Shown piece after piece: positions 1,520 through 37,089 of a stretch of DNA of 64,000 bases. Origin of the DNA: Microbacterium phyllosphaerae (GTDB lineage Bacteria > Actinomycetota > Actinomycetes > Actinomycetales > Microbacteriaceae). Positions within the stretch are counted from its first letter, which is position 1; each line of letters begins with the position of its first letter. The stretch covers positions 186,001 through 250,000 of the forward strand of contig NZ_JAGIOA010000001.1 in assembly GCF_017876435.1 (NCBI RefSeq). The letters run 5' to 3'. The notes below the pieces were generated by a model, which had not been told where the DNA came from, made no database searches, and saw only the letters and a list, made by a program, of their open reading frames with translations. The position numbers were made by a program, and so were the translations under genes.

Positions 1520-2392
1520 CTAGAGCGTCGCCGCGTGGTCGGGGACGAAAGCATGCTCGTCGATCGGCGGACGCGGGGCACCCGACGCCGCGGGGCGGTC
1601 GGGGAAGTGGACCTCTTCGGGGTCGAGCCGGCGGTAGGGGATCTGACTCAGCAGATGGTGGATGGTGTTGAGCCGCGCGGCCTTCTTGTCGTCGCTGTCG
1701 ATCGACCACCAGGGCGCGGCCTCGCGATCGGTGATGTCGAACATCGCATCCTTGGCCTGTGAGTAGTCCTCCCAGCGGGAGATGGAGGCCAGGTCGGTGT
1801 CGGAGAGCTTCCACCGTCGCATCGGATCGTTCAAGCGTGACCGGAACCTCTTCTCCTGTTCGGTGTCGGATACCGAGTACCAGTACTTCAGCAGGATGAT
1901 CCCGTCGTCGACCAGCATCTGCTCGACGACGGGGACCTGCGCGAGGAAGCGGTCGTACTCCTCGTCCGTGCAGTAGCCCATCACCTTCTCGACGCCGGCG
2001 CGGTTGTACCAGGACCGATCCATCAGCACGATCTCGCCCGTGGTGGGAAGCCGCTCGATGTACCGCTGGAAGTACCACTGGCCCCTCTCGCGTTCCGACG
2101 GCTGCGGCAGGGCGACCACCCGGGCGTGACGCGGATTGAGGTACTGCATCACGCGCTTGATCGCACCGCCCTTGCCCGCCGCATCGCGGCCCTCGAAGAT
2201 CACGAGAATCCGCGCATCTGCCGCGATGACCCACTGCTGCATGCTGACGAGCTCGATCTGCAGACGCCTCAGTTCCTTCTCGTACCGCTTCTTGTCGAGC
2301 CGTGTGTGCGTCTTCCTCTTGTCATGGTGCTTGTGCTTCTCGTCATGGGCCTTGGTCTTGGTCTGGGTCTTGGTCTTGGTCTTGCCGGCCAT
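1520..2392 (-). CDS. ppk2: Polyphosphate kinase 2 (PPK2)
   Basis: 290 residues. PPK2 enzymes transfer phosphate between polyphosphate and nucleotides in the cytoplasm. The Walker A motif GRDAAGKGG is at 68-76, followed by the lid-type motif DRSWYNR at 125-131, and conserved ISRWEDYSQAKD and a WW pair towards the C-terminus. Length fits single-domain PPK2. ATG 2392 is preferred over the upstream open frame because GGGAAGGACACG precedes it and the PPK2 core follows at the usual distance. The first 30 residues are unusual: a Lys/Thr alternation (KTKTKTQTKTK) and a His/Lys-rich stretch, encoded partly by AAGACC-type repeats (2349-2386), possibly suited to binding polyanions. It is convergent with the LysR gene and divergent from the nitroreductase gene. 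Confidence 0.93.
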   Translation of the reverse strand: MAGKTKTKTQTKTKAHDEKHKHHDKRKTHTRLDKKRYEKELRRLQIELVSMQQWVIAADARILVIFEGRDAAGKGGAIKRVMQYLNPRHARVVALPQPSERERGQWYFQRYIERLPTTGEIVLMDRSWYNRAGVEKVMGYCTDEEYDRFLAQVPVVEQMLVDDGIILLKYWYSVSDTEQEKRFRSRLNDPMRRWKLSDTDLASISRWEDYSQAKDAMFDITDREAAPWWSIDSDDKKAARLNTIHHLLSQIPYRRLDPEEVHFPDRPAASGAPRPPIDEHAFVPDHAATL

Positions 2393-2667
2393 CGTGTCCT
2401 TCCCGTCCGTGGCGTGGGTGACGGGCGGCCGCCCCACGCCCGATCTCGCGAGACAACCAGACCGGCACAGCCCGCAGAACCCCCTTGCTTTCGGAGGCGG
2501 CAGAGGATTCCCCACCGGACACGCGTGCGAGAGCCCGACATCCGCCCGCGGCACGCGCCCGGGGAAAGTCATACGGCGTCATCGGGAATATGCGTTCACA
2601 TGCATTCGTTGAGACCCTCGTACCCGGACGAAGGAGTCCGATCGACTCCTTTCCGAAAGGCACTTCC

Positions 2668-3255
2668 GTGAGCACTCCCGTGATTGACCGCACCGCCCCC
2701 ACCGAGCACCCCGTCCTCGACGTCCTCGCCGGGCGCTGGAGCCCTCGCGCCTACGACGCCGAGAACACGATCGACGACGCCAAGCTGAACGCCGCCCTCG
2801 AGGCCGCGCGCTGGTCGCCGTCGGCATACAACCTGCAGCCGTGGCGCTTCATCGTCGCTCGCCGTGGCACCGCGCTGTTCGACCAGGTCGTCGAGTCGCT
2901 CGTCGAGTTCAACCAGCTCTGGGCCTCGAAGGCCTCGGCCCTCATCGTCGCGATCGCCGAGACCGAGTCCGAAGAGGGCAAGGCCATCAGCCACGCGGTC
3001 TACGACCTCGGCCAGGCCGTCGCCCACTTCTCGGTGCAGGCGCACCACGAGGGTCTCCTCGTGCACCAGATGAGCGGCTTCGACCCTGAAGTCGTCCGCG
3101 AGTTCGCCGACCTGTCGCCGCGTTTCTCGGCCATCACCGTGATCGCCGTCGGCGAGTACGGCGACGCCGCCGGTCTTCCCGAGGGTCTCCAGCAGGGCGA
3201 GACCGCACCGCGCGTGCGTCGCCCGATCGACGAGACGGTCATCCTCAGCGCCTGA
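2668..3255 (+). CDS. Nitroreductase family protein
   Basis: 195 residues, the length of a compact FMN-dependent nitroreductase. The N-terminal RWSPRAYD and WSPSAYNLQPWRFI segments match the FMN phosphate-binding part of the fold, and the C-terminal half has AVAHFSVQAHHEGLLVHQMSGF. Such enzymes reduce nitro or quinone groups with NAD(P)H; the substrate here cannot be told. The start is GTG 2668, with GAAAGG seven bases upstream; an open frame further upstream has no comparable ribosome site. Transcribed alone and followed by a strong hairpin. The 275-bp region between it and the divergent ppk2 holds no gene I can support. Confidence 0.85.
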   Translation: MSTPVIDRTAPTEHPVLDVLAGRWSPRAYDAENTIDDAKLNAALEAARWSPSAYNLQPWRFIVARRGTALFDQVVESLVEFNQLWASKASALIVAIAETESEEGKAISHAVYDLGQAVAHFSVQAHHEGLLVHQMSGFDPEVVREFADLSPRFSAITVIAVGEYGDAAGLPEGLQQGETAPRVRRPIDETVILSA

Positions 3256-32510: not shown

Positions 32511-33479
32511 TCAGCCCAGGAGCTCCTTGAAGAGGTCGAACTGCTCGTCGACGAAGGTCGTCCACTCCGCCGAGTCGCGGTAGACCACGAGGTTTCCCGC
32601 GTCCTTCTGGAACTGCTGGTAGGTGTCGGACTCGACGGCTTCCTTCACCGCGGACTCCAGCTCGCCCTTGACGTCGTCCGGCAGGCCCTTGGGGGCGTAG
32701 ATGCCACCCCACCCTCCGAAGACCACGTCTTCACCGATGGCCTCATCGACCGTCGGCACGTCCTCGGCATCCGGGTGGCGCTCGTCGTTCATGACCGCGA
32801 GGATGCGCACGGCCTCGCCCTGCGCGAGGGCCTCACCGAGACCCGACACCGCGGCGACCGTCTCTCCGGATGCGGCGGCGGCGACGGCGGTCGCACCACC
32901 GTCGTACGGCACGGGCGAGAAGGTCGCGTCGGTCGCATCGCCGAGGCCGACGGTCGCGGCCTCCCAGATCGATCCGGCACCGGAGTTGGCGACCGTGACG
33001 GCGCCGGACTTCGCCTGGGCGACGAGGTCTTCGAGCGACTCGATGCCGCTGTTGGCGCCGACCGTGATGACTCCGGGAGCCAGCATGATCTGGCCGAGCA
33101 GATCGAAGTCCTCGGGGAGCACGTTCGCGCTCTGCGTGGTGTTGAGCATCGCGATCTCGACCGGGGCGAATCCGATCACGTAGCCGTCGGGATCCTGCGC
33201 GCCGACGTACTCCATGGCGAGCGCGCCTGCGGCACCGGGCATGTTCTCGGGGATGACGCTGACGCCGAGGATCCCCTCGAGCTCGGTGGCGAGGGCGCGC
33301 GACGACAGGTCGGACCCGCCGCCGGGGTTGGCCTGGATGATCAGGCGGATGTCGTTCTCGGGAAAGGCGGATGCCGCATCCTCACCCTCTTCGACCTTGG
33401 TGCAGGCCGACAGGACGAGAGCGGTGGCGGCGGCGGCCGCGATCGCGGCGGCCGCCCGGGTGATGCGCATGCGGGGCAT
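32511..33479 (-). CDS. tctC: Tripartite tricarboxylate transporter substrate-binding lipoprotein TctC
   Basis: 322 residues. A lipoprotein signal peptide with an Ala-rich core ends in the lipobox LSAC (Cys26). NDIRLIIQANPGGGSDLSSR, the later MPGAAGALAMEYV and YAPKGLPDDVKGELESAVKE near 270 are the usual Bug/TctC family blocks. It captures a carboxylate outside the membrane and passes it to TctA/B. ATG 33479 follows GAGGAGCAAAG. An operator-overlapped promoter and a 5'-UTR hairpin lie upstream, so this is the first gene of the tctCBA-dapA-like operon. Confidence 0.93.
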   Translation of the reverse strand: MPRMRITRAAAAIAAAAATALVLSACTKVEEGEDAASAFPENDIRLIIQANPGGGSDLSSRALATELEGILGVSVIPENMPGAAGALAMEYVGAQDPDGYVIGFAPVEIAMLNTTQSANVLPEDFDLLGQIMLAPGVITVGANSGIESLEDLVAQAKSGAVTVANSGAGSIWEAATVGLGDATDATFSPVPYDGGATAVAAAASGETVAAVSGLGEALAQGEAVRILAVMNDERHPDAEDVPTVDEAIGEDVVFGGWGGIYAPKGLPDDVKGELESAVKEAVESDTYQQFQKDAGNLVVYRDSAEWTTFVDEQFDLFKELLG

Positions 33480-33495
33480 CTTTGCTCCTCTACGT

Positions 33496-33517
33496 GGGTC
33501 GACCTTGTTGTCGACCC
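33496..33517 (-). promoter_or_regulatory. 5'-UTR hairpin of tctC
   Basis: GGGTCGAC, CTTGTT, GTCGACCC: a perfect 8-bp stem between the -10 box and the ribosome site of tctC, just downstream of the expected transcription start. It could stabilise the mRNA 5' end or be a second protein site. Confidence 0.5.
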
Positions 33518-33521
33518 TCCG

Positions 33522-33555
33522 ACCGTAGCAGTGTTGACTGTTAACAGTCAACACT
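33522..33555 (-). promoter_or_regulatory. tctC promoter with a 26-bp perfect palindromic operator
   Basis: The palindrome (33530-33555) has the arm AGTGTTGACTGTT followed by its exact complement. Minus-strand -35 TTGACT (33551-33546) is part of it; after 18 bp comes -10 TACGGT (33527-33522). The core TGTTAACA recurs upstream of the GntR gene, so the GntR/FCD protein is the probable binder. Confidence 0.88.
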
Positions 33556-33620: not shown

Positions 33621-34286
33621 TCAGGCCGGGCGGCCGGCGAGCTCGCTGAGCATCCGATCGCGGGCGCCGTCGAGATGGGCGGTCAGGACCGAGGCCGCCT
33701 CCTCCGGTGTGCCGGAGCGCATCACGTCCATCAACTTCACGTGATCGTCCGACGACTCGTGGAGGTCGTCGTCGTGATTGATCGTGACCTCGAGGAGCGA
33801 GGCGAAGGTCGGCAGGTACTGGCTCCAGGCACCCTGCAGCCGGGGGTGGTCGGCCAGCGCGTAGATCTCCGAGTGGAACTCGAGGTCGGCGGCGACGAAA
33901 GCCGCGTGATCACCACTGTCGGCGGCGGCACCCATCCGCCCGACGGCCGCAGCCATCGCCGCCCAGCGCGCGTCGTCGTCCACTCGCATGGCCCGCGAGA
34001 GCGCCAGCTGCTCGAGGGCGCCGCGCAGGCTGTACAGCTGATCGACGTCGTCCTGCGAGAGTCCGGTGATGTACACGCCACGAGGGCGCTGCACCTCGAC
34101 GAGCTTCTCGAAGCTGAGCTGGGTGAGCGCGTCGCGGATCGGTCCCCTGCTCACCGAGAACTCCTCGGCGAGGGCCTCTTCGGTGATGCGGGCGCCGGGC
34201 GCCAGCTCTCCGCGGACGATGCGCTGGCGCAGGACCTGCGCGACCTGCGCTCCGAGGGACTCTCCGCGCTTCACGGTCTGTGTCAC
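33621..34286 (-). CDS. GntR family (FCD domain) transcriptional regulator
   Basis: 221 residues. The N-terminal winged helix (about 12-75, with ITEEALAEEFSVSRGPIRDA) precedes an FCD effector domain (about 80-210, with D-x3-H and two further His residues that often bind a metal and a carboxylate). This FadR-type subfamily commonly senses organic acids. GTG 34286 has AGGAGG with ideal spacing. Its ribosome site overlaps a CTGTTAACAG palindrome, implying autoregulation. The same core sits in the tctC promoter just downstream, so the protein should switch the Tct-DapA operon. Confidence 0.9.
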   Translation of the reverse strand: MTQTVKRGESLGAQVAQVLRQRIVRGELAPGARITEEALAEEFSVSRGPIRDALTQLSFEKLVEVQRPRGVYITGLSQDDVDQLYSLRGALEQLALSRAMRVDDDARWAAMAAAVGRMGAAADSGDHAAFVAADLEFHSEIYALADHPRLQGAWSQYLPTFASLLEVTINHDDDLHESSDDHVKLMDVMRSGTPEEAASVLTAHLDGARDRMLSELAGRPA

Positions 34287-34390: not shown

Positions 34391-34831
34391 TCAGCTGAGC
34401 CAGGCGGGAACGCGTCCGCGGAGGAACGCCCCGTCGAGCGAGAAGCGTCCGGCTCCGGTGAAGGCCAGCGCGAGCGCTGCGACCCCGAGTACCGCGACGA
34501 ACTCGTATCCGCCCTCGCCCACCCACAGGCCCGCGGGCAGGTGCACGGCGACGAGCGCCACGACCATGTCGACCGCGAGCAGGATGCCGACGGGGCGCGT
34601 GAAGAGTCCGAGCGCCAGCAGGATGCCGCCGATCAGCTCGACGAACGCGACGACGGGCGCGGCGATCTCGGGCAGCGGGACGCCCATGCCGGCGAAGCTG
34701 CCGATGGCCCCGGGGAGGGTGTACTCGAAGATCTTCTGCGCTCCATGAGCGGCGAAGACGAAGCCGACGACGACGCGCAGGACGAGGAGTCCCAGCGAAG
34801 AGGCGGCGGAGGGGGCGGTGGTGTTCGTCAT
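34391..34831 (-). CDS. DoxX family membrane protein
   Basis: 146 residues with four membrane helices. VVGFVFAAHGAQKIF near residue 22 and GGILLALGLFTRPVGILLAV near 75 are DoxX family blocks. DoxX-like proteins are small integral membrane proteins linked in some bacteria to thiol or quinone redox balance; the exact role here is unknown. ATG 34831 is supported by GAAGGA ten bases upstream. Confidence 0.88.
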   Translation of the reverse strand: MTNTTAPSAASSLGLLVLRVVVGFVFAAHGAQKIFEYTLPGAIGSFAGMGVPLPEIAAPVVAFVELIGGILLALGLFTRPVGILLAVDMVVALVAVHLPAGLWVGEGGYEFVAVLGVAALALAFTGAGRFSLDGAFLRGRVPAWLS

Positions 34832-35037
34832 GAGGAGATGTTCCTTCGTGGCAGGACACCGCGCGCCAGGCGCGGAGCAGGGTCGTTCCCTGCTCCCACG
34901 GTAGAAAGCGCACTTTTCCTTCTCCTGAGCGCGCCCTACTCGGAGCCCGCGTCGAGCAGCCTTCCGTAGACTCGCCGGGTGGCGTGAATCACGCTGGGGA
35001 GGGCGATGGTCGCAGCCGGGAGAGGGCAGGGACGAAG

Positions 35038-35682
35038 GTGAGGGCACGATCGGCATTCGGTGTGCTGCGCCTGGCGACGGCATCCGTGTGCACCGTCGCG
35101 CTCGTGCATCGCCTGTTCTGGGGCCTGAGCTCGCGCACGATCGCGGGCGAGAACTTCTTCGCCTACCTGACCGTGCAGTCCAACTGCGCGCTCGTCGTCG
35201 TGCTGCTGATCGGGGCGGTGCTGGCGTTCATCCGGCCCGCGGATCCACGCTGGTTCACCGTCTCCTTGGCGCTGGTGCTGACCTGGACGATCACCGCAGG
35301 GCTCGCCTTCGCGCTGATCGTGTGGCAGGCGGGATTGCGCGGCATCCGCGTCGACGTGCCCTGGTCCGATCAGGTGCTGCATTTCTATCTGCCCGCGTGC
35401 ACGGCCATCGCCTGGGTGCTCACGCCGGGGCACCGCGGTGTGCCGTGGTGGGTCGTGCCGACGGCACTGGCCTTTCCCCTCGCCTGGGGAGGGGTCACCC
35501 TGTGGCGCGGCCCCTCGGTGGGCTGGTACCCCTACTACTTCCTGGATCCTCGTCAGGTGTCGGGCCCGCCCGAGTTCCTGCTGACGAGCGCGATCGCTCT
35601 GGCGATCTTTGCCCTCGTCGCAACGGTCATCGTGCTCGTCAGCAGGATGCGACGGCGAGGCCACGAGCGCCCCGAGGTCTGA
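35038..35682 (+). CDS. Pr6Pr-like (FAR-17a/AIG1-type) six-helix membrane protein
   Basis: About 214 residues from GTG 35038, with six hydrophobic helices. FFAYLTVQSNCALVVVLLIG and LHFYLPACTAIAWVLTPGHR match the Pr6Pr family of six-helix membrane proteins, related in fold to eukaryotic AIG1/ADTRP hydrolases; conserved Asn and His residues near the membrane face would be the catalytic pair if the family analogy holds. The start is uncertain: GTG 34984 is in frame and lies just after a TAGACT box (34967-34972), while GTG 35038 has AGGGA nearby. Convergent with the amine oxidase gene, 18 bp apart. Confidence 0.7.
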   Translation: MRARSAFGVLRLATASVCTVALVHRLFWGLSSRTIAGENFFAYLTVQSNCALVVVLLIGAVLAFIRPADPRWFTVSLALVLTWTITAGLAFALIVWQAGLRGIRVDVPWSDQVLHFYLPACTAIAWVLTPGHRGVPWWVVPTALAFPLAWGGVTLWRGPSVGWYPYYFLDPRQVSGPPEFLLTSAIALAIFALVATVIVLVSRMRRRGHERPEV

Positions 35683-35700: not shown

Positions 35701-37089
35701 CTAGACGGCGGTGAGGAACGGCGCGAGCGAGGCGATCGCCGCCTCCAGCACCTTCTGATCGTCGAGCTTCGCGAACGCGTCGGCGGCTTCTCCTCCGACG
35801 ATGCCGACGACGACGTCCTCCCCCGTGACCGGGGCGAGGTTGAACCAGGTGCGGATGAGCCCGTCGCCGCCGACGGCATGCCAGATCGCCGCCTCGGGTT
35901 CGCCCTCGGTCTGCGGCGCCGCGAAGGCGAGCGGCTCGTCGAACCTCAGCCAGACGGTCTCGATGCGCCCCATGCCGAGCGCGGCGATCGCACCGCGGTG
36001 GCCGAACGGCAGCGCCGGAGCGAACTGCAGCCCCTCACCCTTGAGCACTCCGAGCGGCACCGTGATCAGCACCCGGTCGAACGACAGCGATTCGCCCGAC
36101 GCGATGCCGAGACTCACACCCTTCTCGTCGTAGGCGATGCGGCTCACGGGCGACGAGAGACTGAGCTTCGCACCGTCGAGCAGCCCCTCGATCACAGGCG
36201 TCAGGTCGCCGAGCGGCGCGATGTACTCATCGGCCGGAAGCGCCGGCGGGAACCACGACGACTCCTGCGCGGCGTCAGCCCCGGAGAACGCCGTGATCGA
36301 GGCGAGCAGCGCCGCGAGCCCCGGCTCGGTGGGGTCGGCCCCCGCCTCGGTCAGCGCATCCTCGAGAGAGATGTCGGTGACGCCCTGCTGCGCCGAGGCG
36401 ATCGCCGCCTGCACGGGCTCGGTGGAGACCGGCTCGACGTCGCCGTCGGCGGACCGCCATCGCGTTCCGGTGAGCGAGACGTCGCGGACATCGAGCTCGG
36501 TGAGGTGGTCGCGTATCTCACCGTCGGATGCGCCGAGAAGCCATCCTCCCAGCTGCGCCGGGAAGGGCCAGGCCTTGTCGTCGACGACGGAATGGATGCG
36601 TCCGCCGACGCGATCGCGCGCCTCGAAGACCGTGACCTGCAGACCGTCGGCGACGAGCCGTGCTGTCGCCGCGGCCCCGGCCAACCCCGCGCCGATCACC
36701 GCGACCCGTTCGCCTGTCGCCGCCGCACGCAGGAGCTGCCCGGCGGCGCGGTCACCCGAGCGGAGAGCGCCCGCGATCGTGCCCGGCGCCTCGGTGTCAG
36801 TCGCTTCGCCAGACAGGAACAGGCGGTCGTCGATCGGCTCCGCGAGCGCATCGCGTTCGCTGACCTGTGTGCCGACGGGCGTGAAGCTCGCGGCGCCGAG
36901 CGCGAAGGGATCCGTGGACCACGAGCTGCGGGCGAACGCCGCCGGGGTGATCGTGTCGGATGTCGGCTTCGGAGTCGGCGACCGGTCGGGCGTGGGCGAC
37001 GGCGCCGGCTCGGGCGTGCAGGAGGCCAGCAAGACCCCCAGAACGCCGGCTCCGGCGCCCATCAGCAGTGTGCGACGCGTCATCCTCAT
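35701..37089 (-). CDS. Tat-exported lipoprotein flavin amine oxidase, apparently circularly permuted
   Basis: 462 residues. A twin-arginine signal (TRRTLLMGAGAGVLGVLLA) ends in the lipobox LASC (Cys24), followed by a Pro/Ser/Thr linker. Residues ~54-120 (WSTDPFALGAASF, RDALAEP, RLFLSGEATD, PGTIAGALRSGDRAAGQLL) are the block that normally ENDS flavin amine oxidases. The dinucleotide-binding start RVAVIGAGLAGAAATARL comes only at ~128, and the protein stops at VVGIVGGEAADAF plus ~25 residues, where others continue into that block. So the order is C-terminal block then N-terminal domain. FAD-dependent oxidation of an amine outside the membrane is expected; substrate unknown. ATG 37089 or 37083. 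Confidence 0.85.
   Translation of the reverse strand: MRMTRRTLLMGAGAGVLGVLLASCTPEPAPSPTPDRSPTPKPTSDTITPAAFARSSWSTDPFALGAASFTPVGTQVSERDALAEPIDDRLFLSGEATDTEAPGTIAGALRSGDRAAGQLLRAAATGERVAVIGAGLAGAAATARLVADGLQVTVFEARDRVGGRIHSVVDDKAWPFPAQLGGWLLGASDGEIRDHLTELDVRDVSLTGTRWRSADGDVEPVSTEPVQAAIASAQQGVTDISLEDALTEAGADPTEPGLAALLASITAFSGADAAQESSWFPPALPADEYIAPLGDLTPVIEGLLDGAKLSLSSPVSRIAYDEKGVSLGIASGESLSFDRVLITVPLGVLKGEGLQFAPALPFGHRGAIAALGMGRIETVWLRFDEPLAFAAPQTEGEPEAAIWHAVGGDGLIRTWFNLAPVTGEDVVVGIVGGEAADAFAKLDDQKVLEAAIASLAPFLTAV

Follow-up and report, generated by a model that had tools for sequence, protein, structure and literature searches.

In this study, we found that a gene in a 64,000-nucleotide stretch of the Microbacterium phyllosphaerae genome (contig NZ_JAGIOA010000001.1, positions 186,001 to 250,000; the window) almost certainly encodes, judging by its sequence, a naturally circularly permuted member of the flavin amine oxidase family. 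The usual chain order of this family is N-terminal part, middle part and C-terminal block (N-M-C), but the window's protein, P0001, runs C-N-M. Its two pieces match one family in swapped order and jointly cover the family profile without duplication. Since N-M-C is only the usual order of the family, P0001 is regarded as a permuted member and not as a non-member. Relatives were collected in a close set (P0001 and the best 120 of 1605 relatives) and an alphaproteobacterial set (P0122, a permuted Erythrobacter relative, and the best 120 of 3427). The features of the gene and its neighbor are as follows:

35701..37089, minus strand: permuted flavin amine oxidase family gene, 462 aa, stop included (ORF and translation)
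37018..37089, minus strand: Tat-like signal with TRRTLL, ending in a lipobox-like LASC, residues 1-24 (motif reading of the translation)
36952..37017, minus strand: Pro/Thr-rich linker, residues 25-46 (translation and alignment)
36730..36951, minus strand: displaced family C-terminal block, residues 47-120 (PF01593 371-443; LSD2 703-773)
36889..36891, minus strand: Ala67 at the GSYSY tyrosine position (aligned with Tyr50 of P0122)
36805..36807, minus strand: Glu95 of the displaced SGEAT motif (E in 121/121 close and 121/121 alphaproteobacterial proteins)
35704..36717, minus strand: family N-terminus (FAD Rossmann motif) through the middle part, residues 125-462 (PF01593 to position 365)
36676..36693, minus strand: GAGLAG dinucleotide-binding motif, residues 133-138 (translation; first Gly in 121/121 close relatives)
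35956..35958, minus strand: Thr378 at the family's flavin-facing lysine position (same column as Lys329 of P0122)
34984..35682, plus strand: Pr6Pr family membrane protein, 232 aa (NCBIfam NF038065, 88.2 bits, cut-off 30)

The frame, strand and coordinates of the gene in the original prediction were correct according to ORF and translation. The translated protein starts with MRMTRRTLLMGAGAGVLGVLLASC. After the Pro/Thr-rich linker it reads WSTDPFALG...GEATDTEAPGTIAGALRSG, followed by VAVIGAGLAG and the remainder of the enzyme, with GGR at residues 162-164 downstream of GAGLAG. The FAD-site block with its W-x-x-DP and GEA motifs is present at residues 47-120. As predicted, the C-terminal-type block comes first (SSWSTDPFALGAASF...RDALAEPIDDRLFLSGEATDTEAPGTIAGALRSGDRAAGQLL, about residues 54-118), but the GAGLAG motif, placed at about residue 128 in the prediction, is located at residues 133-138. 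The protein ends as foreseen at VVGIVGGEAADAF, and the trailing residues, given as about 25, number 23.

Compared with PF01593, the whole 462-residue protein reaches an E-value of 7.4e-47 and 161.1 bits (gathering score 19.8) in three stretches. Scanned alone, residues 45-121 match profile positions 371-443 of 443 (E 1.9e-15; matching part residues 48-120), while residues 122-462 match with E 9.4e-32 and their best stretch stops at position 365. PF13450 additionally matches at the start of the part formed by residues 125-462. The swap is also seen against LSD2 (4gu0), where residues 123-171, 294-454 and 47-117 of P0001 align with chain residues 335-380, 533-692 and 703-773. Likewise, residues 108-188, 235-402 and 37-99 of P0122 align with residues 109-189, 393-567 and 582-656 of LSD1. 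Thus, the split PF01593 matches and the LSD2 alignment bear out the proposal that the block at residues 54-120 corresponds to the C-terminus of the family in swapped order. In the control L202, a normal-order protein, profile positions 1-442 were matched as a single piece. Chance resemblance of the front block was considered and rejected, because the block alone reaches an E-value of 1.9e-15. Homologs with the swapped order, whose presence in several genomes the original prediction had named as support, were found by block HMMs, and all 242 proteins (P0001, P0122 and both best-120 relative sets) are C-N-M. A simple motif pattern missed one protein, P0101, which the block HMMs assign as C-N-M. 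It is plausible that the termini lie close enough together in the amine oxidase fold to be joined. The PDB alignments covered the top three chains for P0001 and the top one for P0122. Among the 60 PDB matches listed for P0122, no best stretch spans the C-block motifs plus GxGxxG; therefore, there is no sign of a solved permuted structure.

Duplication is a usual route to permutation, and a partial duplication, in which the C-block was copied to the front and a C-terminal copy was missed or is kept in relatives, would be an alternative description of the gene. A possible starting point for a permuted gene exists in one alphaproteobacterial genome, in which two normal-order copies lie in tandem 39 bases apart (L163). 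However, every one of the 101 permuted frames in the fetched loci, and every one of the 242 proteins, has exactly one C-block, so that the second C-terminal copy named in the original prediction as a refuting case did not turn up, and the remaining part of P0001 stops at profile position 365 of 443. The duplication reading is already refuted for the members examined, and its probability is negligible. The tandem genes are located at L163:466-1713 and 1753-2997 (plus strand). A junction-spanning match with internal stops in G1047 was rejected as a candidate permuted gene; it is this tandem pair, combining the C-block of the first copy with the N-part of the second.

The permuted form reaches beyond the genus to other Microbacteriaceae, several actinobacterial families and Alphaproteobacteria. 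A permuted-order model built from 12 permuted sequences finds matches at E-values up to 1e-30 in 155 of the 366 genomes of the genus, and all but two of the matches listed start at model position 28 or earlier and extend beyond the junction. At E-values up to 1e-15, 182 of the 398 genomes sampled from the family give matches, normal-order relatives included; by hand count, more than 100 of the matches listed outside the genus cross the junction, representing 27 genus codes. Block order was determined directly for the fetched loci only, and by block HMMs the loci of Cryobacterium, Herbiconiux, Rathayibacter, Agromyces, Leifsonia, Frigoribacterium and Erythrobacter sanguineus are permuted; the Demequina maris locus has the normal order. 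In the class and phylum samples, which are sparse and of which part of the first-look candidates were scored, ten permuted members outside Microbacteriaceae plus one truncated candidate (class, 296 genomes; block HMMs) and one further permuted member, L201 (phylum, 129 genomes), were detected. In samples with the same limits, full-length matches were obtained in 2 of 289 alphaproteobacterial genomes and in 4 of the 150 genomes of the Pseudomonadota sample, the seed being counted in both. The permuted form is therefore sparse among the sampled genomes of these groups, and many relatives of P0122, often metagenomic, came from the protein search (best 120 of 3427). L210, L212 and L213 are, like L201, permuted by block HMMs, L212 and L213 being divergent members from Pseudomonadota. 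Samples of Chloroflexota (101 genomes), Acidobacteriota (99) and Bacteroidota (99), also sparse and scored for part of the first-look candidates, gave matches in 10, 4 and 9 genomes, respectively; no listed match extends over the junction, and all 15 frames fetched have the normal order. Altogether, the fetched loci contain 101 C-N-M frames, 60 N-M-C frames and two partial ones, counts in which some genes appear twice owing to overlapping or differently cut loci. A plasmid search with P0122 returned 7 records, none spanning 80% of the query. Two permuted proteins, P0163 and P0196, come from contigs of equal length, are both named Alterisphingorhabdus coralli and are probably paralogs within one genome. 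An amine oxidase paralog of normal order, L209 (G000 C1:2096652-2097686), is also encoded in the window's own genome.

Whether the permuted forms go back to one event or to several was addressed with trees of 121, 72 and 73 hand-picked rows, whose sequences had been rearranged into a common order; 49 of the 121 rows, including long-branch normal-order rows and near-copies, were left out of the 72-row tree. Unconstrained, these trees require 5, 3 and 4 changes of order, respectively, and the permuted forms appear as one clade in 0 of 200 bootstrap trees in both the 72-row and the 73-row analysis. Together with the starred branches of the 72-row tree, which force three changes, and the position of the normal-order L202 next to the alphaproteobacterial permuted clade, this favors independent permutations in as many as five lineages, all at one loop. 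On the other hand, the starred branches of the 121- and 73-row trees force one change only, and although the free trees split the permuted forms, a single origin was not rejected by AU tests. The tree with a single permuted clade has a p-value of 0.087 (log-likelihood 25.01 lower) or, after the addition of further normal-order rows, of 0.453 (4.26 lower), and joining the alphaproteobacterial with the main actinobacterial lineages gives 0.383. Moreover, five proteins, drawn from four or five lineages, share a nearly identical cut. The moved part starts at profile positions 368-375 in each of them. In four, the rest of the protein ends at 365-366, and in L187 it ends at 326, the match there breaking off early. 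About 6 residues link the two blocks by the HMM edges. The Tat-like RR signal, which is frequent in every lineage except the Pseudomonadota-2 pair, would also be explained simply by one inheritance. Several independent permutations thus appear somewhat doubtful. The data allow one origin with spread or a few origins, and because the cut position is shared, we lean towards one.

In P0001, a twin arginine, a hydrophobic stretch and a lipobox cysteine can be read, which we take, by motif, to be a putative signal of the Tat-lipoprotein type; P0001 would accordingly be a Tat-exported lipoprotein. RR occurs within the first 40 residues in 117 of 121 proteins of the close set and in 91 of 121 of the alphaproteobacterial set, and the lipobox pattern in 120 and 5 of 121, respectively. 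Divergent L213 has no obvious signal sequence. An RR-type signal is also present in 21 of 45 normal-order relatives (loose pattern). Therefore, the signal is either older than the permutation or independent of it.

The active-site columns were read in a 121-row alignment. At the lysine position, K stands in 34/37 normal-order rows, in 21/21 Alpha, 7/8 Act-3, 2/2 Act-2 and 2/2 Pseudomonadota-2 rows and in L201; in the Microbacteriaceae rows, K is found in 6/50 and T is the commonest residue (33). Because these six rows retain the lysine, it has not been lost throughout the family. The tyrosine of GSYSY, presumably the aromatic residue of the substrate cage, is Y in 30/37 normal-order rows, in 1/50 Microbacteriaceae rows and in 34/34 of the remaining permuted rows. 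The larger sets give the same picture. At the lysine site, the close set has T in 118/121 and S, M and A once each, with no K, and the alphaproteobacterial set has K in 121/121 and Y at the tyrosine in 117/121. P0001 has neither the catalytic lysine (Thr378) nor the cage tyrosine (Ala67). Gly133, Arg164 and Glu95 are kept in 121/121 proteins of both sets and Glu156 in 119/121 (close) and 120/121 (alphaproteobacterial); Trp57 and Trp183 are kept in 121/121 close relatives. The dN/dS values of 0.165-0.342 (Nei-Gojobori, 12 comparisons with relatives) indicate that the gene is under purifying selection.

Taken together, the permuted gene probably encodes a circular permutant of the LSD1/polyamine oxidase family that is a Tat lipoprotein and an FAD enzyme. 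About 70 residues that normally end the family's chain, including the FAD-site motifs W-S-x-D-P, G-E-A and P-G-T, lie here between the putative Tat lipoprotein signal and GxGxxG. The usual two-domain amine oxidase fold is predicted, with a short linker connecting the former termini and the new termini in a surface loop. The intact FAD-site residues suggest FAD binding, and the protein may be exported by Tat in the folded state and anchored outside the membrane. According to PMC12272882, the lysine of the family is bonded via water to flavin N5, and a dehydrogenase retaining this lysine is described as well; in light of the latter, the lysine alone cannot decide between oxidase and dehydrogenase. 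In the window's lineage, both the flavin-facing lysine and the aromatic tyrosine are replaced, and it is tempting to speculate that the substrate is oxidized there without a fast reaction with O2, by a dehydrogenase that passes electrons to a membrane acceptor. This is a tentative proposal with somewhat less than even prospects, and the fact that no gene for an electron acceptor was identified counts against this step.

Alternatively, P0001 might be an ordinary O2-using amine or polyamine oxidase of which merely the chain order has changed. Among PDB chains, LSD2 and LSD1 rank first in sequence similarity, and the alphaproteobacterial permuted members keep the lysine (121/121) and the tyrosine (117/121), for which reason this explanation is the likeliest one for those members. 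For P0001 itself, which has neither residue, it is somewhat unlikely. It is also conceivable that the lineage has a decayed or non-catalytic FAD protein, that is a pseudoenzyme or a structural or sensory lipoprotein, as the Microbacteriaceae have replaced lysine and tyrosine, in most rows also the W and H of GASWIHG, and the lysine site holds several different residues. Decay fits poorly with the invariance of the FAD residues, Trp57 and Trp183 (121/121; Glu156 119/121), with dN/dS values far below 1 and with the retention of the gene in 155/366 genomes of the genus, and we consider it unlikely.

The Pr6Pr gene is convergent with the permuted gene, lying end to end with it, and the two do not form an operon. 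Of the 23 loci fetched for the Microbacteriaceae lineage, 22 contain it, adjacent and convergent in 20; it occurs in 0 of 11 loci of other lineages. The exceptions are L083 (same strand), L084 (5.2 kb off) and L085 (absent, the contig ending close by). Potentially, the Pr6Pr protein is part of the same system as the permuted enzyme. It has no Pfam match, and no paper on Pr6Pr was found in the openly licensed literature. Further genes of the near region code for a TctC-type receptor protein (32511-33554), a GntR/FCD regulator (33621-34286) and a DoxX-type protein (34391-34990), all on the minus strand. The most far-reaching scenario would be a permuted branch with the LSD1/polyamine-oxidase fold in two phyla, whose Microbacteriaceae members are membrane-anchored, quinone-linked FAD dehydrogenases without the lysine that work with Pr6Pr, and in which permutation occurred more than once at a hot-spot loop, possibly by trimming of tandem copies such as L163; taken as a whole, this is improbable.

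At the level of sequence, the permutation is real and widespread, apparently a stable alternative form of a well-known enzyme family. Among the flavin amine oxidases are MAO and LSD1, which are widely used as drug targets and biocatalysts, and the annotation of the family presumes a single chain order. The same cut in distant bacteria suggests that new termini next to the C-terminal FAD block are compatible with the fold, and the shared cut could be a ready site for engineering. In addition, natural pairs with the lysine kept or lost would allow the contributions of lysine and chain order to be separated.

While the family is known, the permuted variant seems to be new. In agreement with the original prediction, which knew of no earlier description, no permuted amine oxidase was found in the openly licensed literature, so that a description elsewhere is possible, and none appears in the available portions of PMC2876114, PMC12272882, PMC6222107, PMC1282579 and PMC4349129. 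The database names of the relatives (FAD-dependent oxidoreductase, flavin monoamine oxidase family protein, monoamine oxidase) do not hint at permutation. P0001 is not a member of the hydroxysqualene dehydroxylase HpnE (TIGR03467), with which it shares a weak profile similarity (79.4 bits, cut-off 283); this similarity exceeds that of P0122. With the PF01593 family (LSD1/KDM1A, LSD2/KDM1B, polyamine and spermine oxidases, MAO), P0001 shares all parts of the profile as well as GxGxxG, GGR and GEA. It differs from this family in the order of C-block, N-part and middle and, within the window's lineage, in the replaced lysine and tyrosine. Actinobacterial Tat-type amine oxidases such as L192 and L203 and the paralog L209 belong to the same family in N-M-C order, and the normal-order proteins L191, L192 and L203 carry RR...C signals as P0001 does. 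Natural circular permutants with a chain order altered within one domain are described, in PMC1282579 and PMC2876114, for DNA/RNA methyltransferases and glutathione synthetase. These represent the same kind of event as in P0001, in unrelated enzyme families.
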